This document shows positions 1,864 to 50,516 of a stretch of DNA of 64,000 nucleotides, in pieces. The DNA comes from Weissella hellenica (GTDB lineage: Bacteria > Bacillota > Bacilli > Lactobacillales > Lactobacillaceae), in assembly GCF_005405545.1 (NCBI RefSeq), contig NZ_BJEG01000002.1, positions 16,932 through 80,931 of the forward strand, written 5' to 3'. The first letter of the stretch is position 1, and every line of letters begins with the position of its first letter. The notes under the pieces were generated by a model. The model was not told where the DNA came from. It was given only the letters and a program-made list of their open reading frames with translations, and did no database searches. The position numbers were made by a program, and so were the translations under genes.

Positions 1864-3267
1864 TTATTGACATAATCGCCATAACGATTCAGCAAAAATG
1901 GCCATCGTTTTAGTCAAATTAACGACGGGTATATTTTCATTTGCCTGATGACTGGTCACTTTTAAATCTGGAAACTGGCCACCAAAGGCAACGCCTCGTT
2001 TCAATAAACGCGCATATGAACCACCATTTGATGTTCTTGGTGGTAAGTACTGACCAGTTTGTTTAGCATAAACATCTGATAAAACTTGTACCAATTCATC
2101 TTCAACTGACACTAGATGTGGTGGCATCCCTGCTTGAACCTGATTTACCTCTGCTTTTAGCCCATTTAAATGGCGTTGAACTTGCGTAATAATTGCTTGT
2201 AAATTAACACCCTGCGGATAACGAAAATTCAATAAAATCGTCCCCTGACCACGATTACTATAGCGCATCACACCAACATTCAACGTTAAATCACCCATTT
2301 GGGCATCCTGATATGCTAACCCTAAACCATGCGCATATACATCTTGGTGAATGGTAAAACCAACAAAGTCAAGAAAAGCTCGGGCATCCCCACCAAAATC
2401 ATAATGACTCAAAAAATGAGCAAGGTAGGTGCCTGCATTTTTCCCATCAGCTGGATAGGCTCCATGTGCCTGTATACCCAACAGTGACAGTTTGAGCGTT
2501 TGACCAGTCTGTTTTGCATTACCATTTAAAAAAGGGTGTTGTTGTAAGAAATCATCAAAATCTCGCACCAAATCAACCCCATCAGGCACCATAATACGAG
2601 CCTTAGCTTCGCCTGGCACAACATTCGGTCGATTTCCGGATATAAAACGTTCTAAAATATAAATACCATTTGAACTGCTAGGAAATCTTAATTGTACCGT
2701 TTGAAAAGCTTTTTCCCCATTAATAACTGGGAATGCCCCATCAGGTGAAAAGCCCAATGTTGGTTCACCTTCTTGCTCAATATAACGTGGTATATCACGC
2801 CAACCATTTTCTTCATCAGTACCAATAATCAGTCTAATTTTACGCTTTAAAGGTCGCTTTTGATCAGCTAGCATTTTAATTGCATAATAAGCTGACATTA
2901 AATCTGCTTTCATATCAGCAGCACCCCGTCCAAAATATAGACCATCTAATATTTCTGGATTAAATGCTGGTCGTAACCAACCATCCCCTGCTGGAACAAC
3001 ATCGATATGCGTTAAAATACCAACCGTTTCAACAGCATCTTGTGGTCCAAATTCAATCCATGTCACCATGTTATCAACACGACTGTACTTAAACCCATCA
3101 CGACTGGCAAATGCCTCCATTTGACTCAAAGCACGAATCATGTCAATCCCAAACGGTGTCTGTGGCGTTTGCGTTTTTACATCCAACACAGAAGGAATCC
3201 GAATAATTTGATTTAAATCATTAATCAATGCTTGTTCGTACTGTTTTGCTTGTATCGCCCACGTCAT
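1864..3267 (-). CDS. pepV: Dipeptidase PepV (M20 metallopeptidase)
   Basis: This 467-residue cytoplasmic protein has the usual length of PepV, which hydrolyses dipeptides, and some tripeptides, taken up by the cell. The M20 zinc ligands are visible: H87 and D89 in THIDVV, D118 in GRGAADMK, and the acidic pair near residues 151-153 (GTDEENGW), which includes the catalytic Glu. The C-terminal part (NGGSYARLL, then SHQANENIP) holds the last ligand region. The gene has its own terminator downstream, and the next gene upstream is an amino-acid permease, so peptide hydrolysis and amino-acid exchange sit side by side. Confidence 0.93.
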   Translation of the reverse strand: MTWAIQAKQYEQALINDLNQIIRIPSVLDVKTQTPQTPFGIDMIRALSQMEAFASRDGFKYSRVDNMVTWIEFGPQDAVETVGILTHIDVVPAGDGWLRPAFNPEILDGLYFGRGAADMKADLMSAYYAIKMLADQKRPLKRKIRLIIGTDEENGWRDIPRYIEQEGEPTLGFSPDGAFPVINGEKAFQTVQLRFPSSSNGIYILERFISGNRPNVVPGEAKARIMVPDGVDLVRDFDDFLQQHPFLNGNAKQTGQTLKLSLLGIQAHGAYPADGKNAGTYLAHFLSHYDFGGDARAFLDFVGFTIHQDVYAHGLGLAYQDAQMGDLTLNVGVMRYSNRGQGTILLNFRYPQGVNLQAIITQVQRHLNGLKAEVNQVQAGMPPHLVSVEDELVQVLSDVYAKQTGQYLPPRTSNGGSYARLLKRGVAFGGQFPDLKVTSHQANENIPVVNLTKTMAIFAESLWRLCQ

Positions 3268-3339: not shown

Positions 3340-4671
3340 TTAGTGCTGACGCCGATGATTATAGTAATAAAATACTGGTAAGCCAACAGCAACTAATAAC
3401 AAAGAAATAACGGCACCAGTGAAATCATTAATAATTGTTGAAAAAATAACAAAGAGGGCGCCGAAAATAGCAACTAATGGCGTAATTGGAAACAAAGGTG
3501 TCTTAAACAAAGTCTTTTCATCTAATGTTGCATCAGTCTTTTTATGACGCAAGATGAAAACACCAATAAACGCAGCGGTATAAAAAATCCAAATTGTAAA
3601 AATAGCAATATCTGACAAACGATCGACACCATTTGTATAAATAATCGCTAGGGCAATCGTCATACCAGCAACCGTCAAAATGGCGTTAGTTGGCTCTTGT
3701 GTTTTACGAGTTAATTTTGATAAATATTTTGGAAACAAGCCATCCAAAGACATTGCGTAGGCCATCCGAGGAAATGACATCATTTTCCCATTCAATGTCC
3801 CTAACATTGAAATAATAATGGCTATACTCAAAGCACGTCCGCCTAAATCACCAAAAGCAGCACGTACAACGGCGAACGTTGCATTATTTTGTAACGCAAC
3901 AATTTTATCTGATGGTAATGCATGGTACACACCAAATGAAACACCGACATAGGCAACCACAATGATACTAACACCACCGACAAGCGACCGTGGTAAGTCG
4001 CGCCGTGGGTTCTTTAATTCACCAGCAATATTAGCCAATAAAATCCAGCCATCGTAGGCAAATAACGTGGCCAAGATCGCCATTCCAAATCCACCACCGT
4101 GGGTCACAGTATGTGTCACAGTTTGTCCAAGGGCATCAACCTTCCCGAAAAATAGTCCATAAATAATTAAAATTGCAATGGGAATTAATTTAATTGATGT
4201 TGTTAATACTTGGAAACCTGCTGCAACGCGATTTTCAAACAAGTTGACTGCGGCAATGAAGACAACATACAAAACAGAAATCCAAGTAGCATATTTCGTT
4301 GATACACCCAAAAAGTTAGCAGTTAAAAAGGCAGCATATCCTGCAATTGATGCTATAACTGCCGGTGCGTAGATAACAACTTGCATCCACCCTGTTAAAA
4401 AGCCGGCAACGGGACCATATAAAGATTCAATATAGCTATAAAGTCCGCCAGTCTTAGGTAAACGTGCGCCAATTTCAGCAATTGTTAAACCCGCTGCCAG
4501 CGTAATAATTCCTCCCGCTAGCCAAGCTAATAACCCTAATGTTGATGAACCAGCGGTTTGTAAAACACCTGCTTGCTTAAAAAATATTCCAGAACCAATT
4601 ACCGTCCCCACTACCAACGATAATCCTGACCAAATTCCCATCGATCGCTTTAACTCAACATCCTGCGCCAT
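3340..4671 (-). CDS. APC-family amino-acid permease (probably serine/threonine- or asparagine-related exchanger)
   Basis: This 443-residue integral membrane protein has about 12 hydrophobic segments and the APC-family start GLSLVVGTVIGSGIFF, the glycine-rich substrate-backbone binding loop of TM1. Overall it looks like the SteT/YfnA-type amino-acid exchangers of Firmicutes. AGGAG lies 8 bases before the ATG. The leader upstream encodes a short peptide with six consecutive Asn codons followed by an intrinsic terminator, so expression probably rises when charged tRNA-Asn is scarce. That regulation points to asparagine or a metabolically linked amino acid as substrate, but the protein alone does not establish specificity. 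Confidence 0.88.
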   Translation of the reverse strand: MAQDVELKRSMGIWSGLSLVVGTVIGSGIFFKQAGVLQTAGSSTLGLLAWLAGGIITLAAGLTIAEIGARLPKTGGLYSYIESLYGPVAGFLTGWMQVVIYAPAVIASIAGYAAFLTANFLGVSTKYATWISVLYVVFIAAVNLFENRVAAGFQVLTTSIKLIPIAILIIYGLFFGKVDALGQTVTHTVTHGGGFGMAILATLFAYDGWILLANIAGELKNPRRDLPRSLVGGVSIIVVAYVGVSFGVYHALPSDKIVALQNNATFAVVRAAFGDLGGRALSIAIIISMLGTLNGKMMSFPRMAYAMSLDGLFPKYLSKLTRKTQEPTNAILTVAGMTIALAIIYTNGVDRLSDIAIFTIWIFYTAAFIGVFILRHKKTDATLDEKTLFKTPLFPITPLVAIFGALFVIFSTIINDFTGAVISLLLVAVGLPVFYYYNHRRQH

Positions 4672-4704
4672 ATAATCACTCTCCTAATGTAAAAATAAAC
4701 AAAA

Positions 4705-4740
4705 AAGCAGTCATCCAATTTAGTAATTGGGTGACTGCTT
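4705..4740 (-). terminator. Attenuator terminator in permease leader
   Basis: Two 16-base arms (AAGCAGTCA-CCAATT type), with one C-A mismatch on the transcribed strand and a 4-base loop, are followed by TTTTTTG. The hairpin lies between the leader peptide and the permease start. Its 5' arm (CACCCAATTAC) can instead pair with GTGATTGGGCG inside the leader peptide coding region (4774-4784), which would act as an antiterminator. Confidence 0.88.
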
Positions 4741-4763
4741 GATAAGTACTCACAGTTTAAGCG

Positions 4764-4838
4764 TTACACAAAACGCCCAATCACTAATTGTGTTGAGTTC
4801 AAGCGATTATTATTATTATTGTTCATAAATACAACCAT
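4764..4838 (-). CDS. Asparagine-rich leader peptide (24 aa)
   Basis: A 24-codon ORF starts with ATG at 4838, preceded 10 bases upstream by a perfect AAGGAG (4849-4854), and ends with TAA at 4764. It reads MVVFM, then six consecutive Asn codons (AAC followed by five AAT), then RLNSTQLVIGRFV with a seventh Asn. The position is that of a classical attenuation leader peptide: promoter, ribosome binding site, run of regulatory codons, overlapping alternative pairing segment, terminator, transporter gene. A ribosome stalled on the Asn run would leave the distal part of the ORF free to form the antiterminator. I infer the function from layout alone. Confidence 0.85.
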   Translation of the reverse strand: MVVFMNNNNNNRLNSTQLVIGRFV

Positions 4839-4886
4839 TTGTTTAACTCTCCTTAATCAATGTACGGGTTTTGCTTAACCAAATAA

Positions 4887-4915
4887 ATATTAGCATACTT
4901 TATACCACATAACAA
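4887..4915 (-). promoter_or_regulatory. Promoter of leader peptide and permease
   Basis: On the minus strand, TTGTTA and TAATAT are 17 bases apart, with an extended TGC directly before the -10. The RNA start would fall about 25-30 bases before the leader peptide ribosome binding site. Confidence 0.6.
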
Positions 4916-12458: not shown

Positions 12459-12531
12459 TGACGCTACACAGACTCGAACTGTGATCTAAGACTTAGGAGG
12501 TCCTTGTTCTATCCTGTTGAACTATAGCGCC
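12459..12531 (-). tRNA. tRNA-Arg (anticodon CCU)
   Basis: This is a 73-base cloverleaf. The acceptor GGCGCTA pairs with TAGCGTC (one G-T) and the D stem is GTTC/GAAC. The anticodon stem AGGAC/GTCTT carries a 7-base loop CTCCTAA, so the anticodon is CCT. The T stem is CACAG/CTGTG with loop TTCGAGT. The discriminator base is A. CCA is not encoded. Confidence 0.95.
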
Positions 12532-50415: not shown

Positions 50416-50428
50416 GAGTCGATATGCG

Positions 50429-50516
50429 CCTATCTACTAGAAATTACCACATCACCTTTAACGGTAGTTGGTGTCAGATCATGGGGTCCAGTCCCTCCCT
50501 GACTCTTGATAGGGTG
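50429..50516 (-). promoter_or_regulatory. SAM-I-type (S-box) riboswitch aptamer, compact variant
   Basis: The RNA reads CCTATC, AAGAG, a UCAG/CUGA P2a stem, then GGAGGGACUGG, the S-box kink-turn signature. CACCAAC replaces CAGCAAC, and GUGGUAAUUUC replaces GUGCUAAAUCC. The two changes covary (AGCA/UGCU to ACCA/UGGU). P1 closes with GATAGG. P4 is reduced to about three base pairs. Position before metK and the downstream terminator fit a SAM-off switch. Confidence 0.87.

Follow-up and report, generated by a model that had tools for sequence, protein, structure and literature searches.

A predicted asparagine-responsive leader-peptide attenuator upstream of an APC-superfamily permease gene in Weissella

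We analysed a 64,000-nucleotide stretch of the genome of a food bacterium, Weissella hellenica (contig NZ_BJEG01000002.1, positions 16,932 to 80,931; hereafter the window). It contains a leader element through which, we predict, ribosome-mediated attenuation governs the transcription of an amino-acid permease gene, with charged asparaginyl-tRNA as the signal. The element is present at 17 of 26 orthologous Weissella loci, and we put the probability of this reading at roughly 84%. Its anatomy, its conservation, the complementarity of one segment (segment 3) with two alternative partners (segments 2 and 4), and the presence in the genus of asparaginyl-tRNA synthetase (AsnRS) without a detected asparagine synthetase can all be read directly from the genomes.

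Results

Anatomy of the leader

The leader lies between gnd (6367-4940) and the permease gene (4671-3340), and it and both genes are on the minus strand of the window. The earlier note on this DNA had described a promoter, an AAGGAG site, a 24-codon open reading frame (ORF) with one AAC and five AAT codons, an intrinsic terminator and an APC permease, in that order, and all of these are present, the promoter being only promoter-like. It consists of a −35-like TTGTTA (4915-4910), a 17-nt spacer and an extended −10 region, TGC-TAATAT (hexamer 4892-4887; whole site 4887-4915). This site scores 8/12 against the consensus, which is below the cut-off of the pattern tool and leaves it off the tool's list; a similar −10 region is visible by eye in most of the 17 Weissella leaders. 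The Shine-Dalgarno sequence AAGGAG (4849-4854) is followed by the leader peptide ORF, MVVFMNNNNNNRLNSTQLVIGRFV (4764-4838), of 24 codons plus TAA, and the six Asn control codons AAC AAT AAT AAT AAT AAT (4806-4823) form a run that is conserved in frame.

Four further features give the leader its alternative structures. Segment 2, the 5' strand of the antiterminator (TTAGTGATTGGG, 4776-4787), lies inside the leader ORF, and its partner, segment 3 (CCCAATTACTAA, 4720-4731), is at once the 3' strand of the antiterminator and the 5' arm of the terminator. The pairing that the earlier note had suspected between the 3' part of the ORF (given there as 4774-4784) and this terminator arm was found as 12 consecutive pairs, including one G-U, between 4787-4776 and 4731-4720. 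A small hairpin, GCGTT(TTGTGT)AACGC (4761-4776), sits between segments 2 and 3. The intrinsic terminator (4701-4740) has a 15-pair stem with one mismatch and ends in TTTTTT (4706-4701); it was predicted by folding and missed by a simple pattern scan. Finally, segment 1, a putative protector (CATTGATT, 4855-4862), can pair with AATTAGTG, which comprises segment 2 and its flank. The fold of the 196-nt leader has a minimum free energy of −52.2 kcal/mol (z −4.3), and none of 200 shuffled sequences folded as low.

When the 190-nt leader was shuffled 20,000 times with its dinucleotide composition kept, no shuffle gave six Asn codons in a row in any of the frames, and four gave five. The six-Asn pattern has four matches in the W. 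hellenica genome, the window leader among them. Two of the others overlap and lie antisense to the 5' end of a 181-aa ORF (contig C10), and the third is antisense within a 469-aa ORF (contig C1). Since these three matches are antisense inside ORFs, the window leader is the only one in a leader position, and the genome has no further leader with this six-Asn pattern.

Conservation in Weissella

A search for the permease in 28 Weissella genomes, that of the window included, gave 26 orthologous loci (L005-L030). One genome (G008) matched only in pieces and another (G020) yielded only a 40% relative, and neither was counted; the window permease is 99% identical to that of genome G019. When the Asn run and the two pairings were checked across these orthologous leaders, an in-frame run of 5-7 Asn codons behind a Shine-Dalgarno-like motif was found at 15 of the 26 loci and a mixed Asp/Asn run at two more (DDNNDD in L016, DTNDDN in L017), while the antiterminator and a script-detected terminator were each present in all 17 of these leaders. 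No comparable leader was found at the remaining 9 of the 26 loci, so the permease does not require it. Leaders L011-L014 are near-copies, and the 17 leaders are therefore not 17 independent cases.

The pattern of conservation differs between the parts of the leader. A leader ORF and a Shine-Dalgarno-like motif occur in 17 of 17 leaders. The distance from the start of the ORF to the run varies (15, 18, 21 or 27 nt), as do the AAC and AAT codons themselves, yet the Asn run stays in frame, which points to selection on the codons. The antiterminator segment TGATTGGG does not differ between any of the 17 leaders, but its reading does. Twelve leaders translate it as V/M-I-G and three (L019, L020 and L023) as D-W, and in the two Asp/Asn leaders (L016 and L017) it comes immediately behind the stop codon. 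Letters that remain constant across such different reading contexts point to selection on the RNA. A small functional protein is not favoured as the product of this ORF, because the peptide outside the run varies by group and its C-terminus shifts frame.

These observations also bear on the possibility that the run is a chance AAT microsatellite in a spurious ORF, with a terminator that belongs to gnd or is constitutive and partial. AAT repeats can expand by slippage, and the run does range from five to seven codons. However, it is a mixture of AAC and AAT held in frame through length changes upstream, six Asn codons were never reached in the shuffles described above, and segment 2 is conserved exactly whatever its reading context. 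Moreover, a promoter-like site separates gnd from the leader, and the leader is kept at five loci where, by eye, the upstream sequence is no longer gnd (L013, L018-L020 and L023). We therefore regard a chance origin as very unlikely. The position of the terminator bears likewise on whether the leader, folding around the ribosome-binding site of the permease, controls its translation and not its transcription. Such attenuators are known, according to passages of PMC9413887; in the window, however, the terminator stem and its T6 tract precede the permease's own ribosome-binding site, and a terminator accompanies every one of the 17 leaders, which makes translational control highly improbable and argues for transcription attenuation.

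Another invariant element in the 17 leaders is the pentamer ACTCA, which follows the Asn run (4794-4798, minus strand, in the window) in differing codon contexts and may pair with the Shine-Dalgarno region. A helix of ACTCA with the stretch before the terminator is not claimed here: by eye it is strong in L018-L020 and L023 (TTTACACT:AGTGTAA), and elsewhere amounts to 4-5 bp.

A covariance model of the leader was built on the antiterminator structure and not on the terminator, because MAFFT misplaces the 3' arm of the terminator in one group. It was run with strict filters on 397 Lactobacillaceae genomes, of which the list includes 26 Weissella genomes (G005 and G008 do not appear). The model matched 16 of these 26, once each and always beside the permease. 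Its one match outside Weissella was weak (G350, E 0.003) and was taken as chance, being a terminator-like repeat between genes with no Asn run by eye in the stretch read. The Asn element thus appears confined to the genus, as far as it was sampled.

Alternative pairings and ribosome position

The helix between segments 2 and 3 is 7-14 bp long across the 17 leaders. A shuffled segment 2 matched it in 0 of 500 trials for 13 leaders and in 7-23 of 500 for the other four. In the alignment of 16 distinct rows, 88.6% of the cells assigned to the antiterminator and the small hairpin are paired, as against 33-45% when the structure is slid by 1-3 columns; for the small hairpin the figure is 87.5%, with a double change at one pair. 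Double changes occur at four pairs, compared with a mean of 1.2 in shuffles (5 of 500 reach four) and 0-3 in the slid versions. The overall covariation score is modest, with 52 of 500 shuffles scoring as high, which is expected where the core of the structure never varies; 127 of 500 shuffles had as many pair types.

The protector pairing of segments 1 and 2 is 8-9 bp long in ten leaders (L005-L014, the window's included), and the pair CATTAATTG:CAATTAGTG of L007-L010 is replaced by CACTTTTTG:CAAAAAGTG in L011-L014. It is better than shuffles (at most 8 of 500) in 10 of the 17 leaders (L007-L014, L020 and L023); in the window's own leader it is no better than shuffles (44 of 500).

We infer that these pairings form in the cell, and the following sequence of events is proposed. 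When asparagine is plentiful, the ribosome would pass the six Asn codons and cover segment 2; the terminator, formed by segments 3 and 4, could then fold, and transcription would stop before the permease gene. Under asparagine shortage, the ribosome would come to a halt at the Asn codons, upstream of segment 2; the latter could then pair with segment 3 while segment 4 was still to be transcribed. RNA polymerase would then read into the permease gene and perhaps into pepV beyond it, so that readthrough would follow the charging of Asn-tRNA. If the leader is not translated at all, the region of its ribosome-binding site may pair with segment 2 and so favour termination.

Each leader was folded up to the start of the 3' arm of the terminator, with a ribosome-sized mask placed at each codon in turn. 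In the window leader, 3.8 antiterminator pairs are expected without a ribosome and 5.7-9.3 when an Asn codon is in the A site; between codon 16 and the stop codon, where segment 2 is masked, the expected number is at most 0.2. Antiterminator pairing in L005-L010 exceeds the no-ribosome value over most of the run, and in L015 it is high (8.8) whether a ribosome is present or not. Ten leaders (L011-L014, L016-L020 and L023) show low pairing or a rise over part of the run only; the probable reason is that the start region can pair with segment 2 behind the stalled ribosome. With the start region also occupied, as by a queued or initiating ribosome, pairing on the run is high in 13 of the 17 leaders, including L015 but not L011-L014. 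A ribosome at the stop codon leaves segment 2 free in L008-L010, L013, L015 and L019 (6.1-9.8 pairs), and termination in these leaders would therefore need the ribosome to be released, or tight coupling. Because the folds are static and the process is kinetic, they speak to the plausibility of the mechanism and are not proof of it.

Leaders with other control codons on related permeases

We also classified 111 loci by leader type, made up of 30 from the Weissella permease search, the paralog in the window's own genome, and 80 from a wider permease search; four pairs among them were taken as the same locus. To be counted by the script, a leader ORF had to start with ATG, have 10-45 codons, lie within 330 nt and follow a Shine-Dalgarno-like motif. 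Asn leaders were assigned to 17 loci (15 distinct), Asp/Asn leaders to two, Ser leaders to 19 and Ser/Thr leaders to 10, and 63 loci were without a leader. The last include all 19 loci from Bacillales-type families and many from Lactobacillaceae, for example Lactiplantibacillus, Levilactobacillus, Fructobacillus and two Limosilactobacillus (L055 and L056).

Leaders with Ser runs (SSSSASSS, SSSSSS) accompany Limosilactobacillus and Lactobacillus permeases (L058, L060, L061, L063-L065, L067-L071, L073-L075, L078, L079, L082, L084 and L089). One of these, L073, comes from a record labelled Clostridiaceae and groups with those from Limosilactobacillus and Lactobacillus. In Weissella, a paralog that is 53-60% identical to the window permease carries a Thr/Ser leader (MTSSNLT.., TTSSDSTT) instead of an Asn leader; this is the case in the window's own genome (L037:1557-1634, on G000:C1) and at L031, L033, L034 and L042-L044. 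Inspection by eye of several Ser-leader folds shows the TCC and TCT codons paired with the AGGAGG Shine-Dalgarno sequence of the same leader, an arrangement that may be self-sequestering.

A terminator candidate, weak in some cases, was found for all 46 distinct leaders examined. The pairing of segments 2 and 3 was matched by 5 or fewer of 200 shuffles in 8 of the 19 Ser leaders and in 2 of the 10 Ser/Thr leaders. TCACTTA or TCACTC in the terminator arm takes part in the best pairing of 10 of the 19 Ser leaders, a match that recurs but is weak in single sequences. Attenuation is thus a firm reading of the Asn leaders and no more than a likely one of the Ser and Ser/Thr leaders.

Leader type goes with position in the permease tree. 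With 106 permeases in the tree, 7 changes account for the five leader classes, compared with 42.7 in shuffles (0 of 200 as low); the figure was obtained by a quick method, and near-copies contribute to it. The tree omits L038-L041, taken as duplicates of L010, L018, L024 and L026, and the truncated L095.

Two other Weissella APC permeases have leaders of their own. One is preceded by a Thr-run leader (TTTTSTT) at all seven loci read (G000:C1:177782-177702, minus strand, in the window's own genome, locus L140; and L143-L148). The other follows a short ORF ending in FTYFG or FTFFG at seven of eight loci (L138:122-178 in the window's own genome, at G000:C1:158421-158477; L149-L151 and L153-L155; absent in L152), which is perhaps a Phe/Tyr (aromatic) attenuator.

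The permease, its neighbours and asparagine supply

The regulated gene (3340-4671, minus strand) encodes a 443-aa amino-acid permease of the APC superfamily, LAT/SteT-like (PF13520, 198.5 bits). It scores 199 bits against TIGR00911, below the cut-off of 702 for that family, and its best relatives in the PDB are 9h76 and 6f2g (280 bits). The dipeptidase gene pepV (1864-3267, minus strand; NF005591, 481 bits, above cut-off) begins 72 nt downstream and is possibly the second gene of the same unit. Seven positions separate the permeases with Asn leaders from those with Ser and Thr/Ser leaders; these residues were considered as substrate markers and are not diagnostic.

AsnRS is encoded in all 28 Weissella genomes. 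AsnA was detected in 0 of 28 and AsnB above its cut-off in 0 of 28; weak AsnB matches of about 40 residues occur in 10 genomes, within frames of 518-548 codons that resemble GMP synthetase. With AsnRS present, AsnA not detected and AsnB not above its cut-off, external asparagine is probably needed, and the charging of tRNA-Asn would follow import. We infer that the window permease imports asparagine.

It is conceivable that the leader peptide senses a broader state, either Asp together with Asn or the general speed of translation, with the Asn run acting as a slow stretch. The replacement of the pure Asn run by DDNNDD and DTNDDN in two leaders would fit such a sensor, and the signal in these two could, from their codons, be Asp as well as Asn. 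Asn-tRNA might also arise by routes other than the AsnRS, AsnA and AsnB that were searched for, such as transamidation. However, 15 of the 17 leaders have pure runs of 5-7 Asn codons, AsnRS is encoded throughout the genus sample, and the leaders of other permeases contain runs of other specific residues, which a speed sensor would not need. We consider a broader signal unlikely and asparagine the probable one.

T-box leaders (RF00230) respond to tRNA charging and act through a terminator and antiterminator (in part after passages of PMC9413887), and the same source, in the passages used here, reports His T-boxes in Lactobacillales. They differ from the leader described here in binding the tRNA directly and requiring no ORF. 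A T-box or a riboswitch that recognises asparagine or its tRNA, and to which the ORF would be incidental, might be considered because T-boxes are common in this genome (21 matches, 11 of them over the cut-off). However, none of the 21 lies at the permease leader or on the asnS contig, no Rfam family reaches its gathering score in the leader, and a lax Rfam scan of it returned only sub-threshold matches (E at least 0.06). We give this alternative hardly any weight beside leader-peptide attenuation. Elsewhere in the window there are a SAM riboswitch (RF00162, 51.3 bits; 50427-50515, minus strand) and a tRNA-Arg(CCT) gene (12459-12531, minus strand).

Discussion

The classical ribosome-mediated attenuators are those of the enteric amino-acid operons trp, his, thr, leu, phe and ilv. 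The Weissella leader resembles them in having a short translated leader, a run of control codons and a mutually exclusive antiterminator and terminator (for the his mechanism, passages of PMC9413887). It differs in its asparagine control codons, in its transporter gene, in its lactic acid bacterium host and in the absence of a detected asparagine synthetase from the genus. By the features testable here, the predicted Weissella element belongs to the ribosome-mediated transcription attenuators.

The earlier note called ribosome-mediated attenuation little described in lactic acid bacteria, where T-boxes dominate. Leader peptides are less rare in Firmicutes than it supposed, with His, Leu/Ile and predicted branched-chain examples published. 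In Staphylococcus aureus, according to passages of PMC5794164, mutations in the ilv-leu leader and depletion of Leu raise promoter activity. This leader resembles ours in its Firmicutes host, its leader peptide with regulatory codons and its terminator and antiterminator, but it has Leu/Ile codons and serves a biosynthetic operon (PMC5794164). His leader peptides have been described for hisS*/hisZ in bacilli (passages of PMC2965389) and his attenuators predicted in Peptostreptococcaceae, Lutispora and Erysipelotrichales (passages of PMC9413887). These are cases of predicted leader-peptide attenuation in Firmicutes, in places of T-boxes or other control, but they use His codons and precede biosynthetic or tRNA-synthetase-like genes (PMC2965389, PMC9413887). 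Leader attenuators have also been predicted in Lactococcus lactis and Streptococcus (as cited in PMC5794164); these likewise have a leader peptide in Lactobacillales but concern branched-chain amino acids and biosynthesis. Upstream ORF candidates with Cys and Phe codons appear in passages of PMC8632094. In the titles, abstracts and passages of the open-access literature, the scope within which we searched (subscription papers fell outside it), we found no Asn- or Ser-specific leader-peptide attenuator and none on a permease of lactic acid bacteria. The mechanism proposed here is classical; its Asn specificity, its transporter target and the exchange of codons across a permease family are apparently new.

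Since related permeases have Ser or Thr leaders, the codon run probably reports the amino acid that each permease serves. Beyond the single leader, we lean towards the view that Lactobacillaceae possess an undescribed suite of attenuators on permeases, in which control codons were exchanged as the permeases diverged. The control codons would be Ser in Limosilactobacillus and Lactobacillus, Thr/Ser in the Weissella paralog, Asn in the clade of the window permease and, in two species, Asp/Asn; other Weissella permeases would add Thr-run and aromatic leaders. Each run of codons would then act as a substrate label, and asparagine would be a new signal for attenuation, one that safeguards asparagine import in an auxotroph for this amino acid.

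If this is true, lactic acid bacteria apply leader-peptide attenuation to importers, with asparagine as a signal. The substrates of APC permeases are often unassigned, and the codon run would predict them from sequence only. In addition, the exchange of control codons across the permease tree would open the evolution of regulatory specificity to direct tests.
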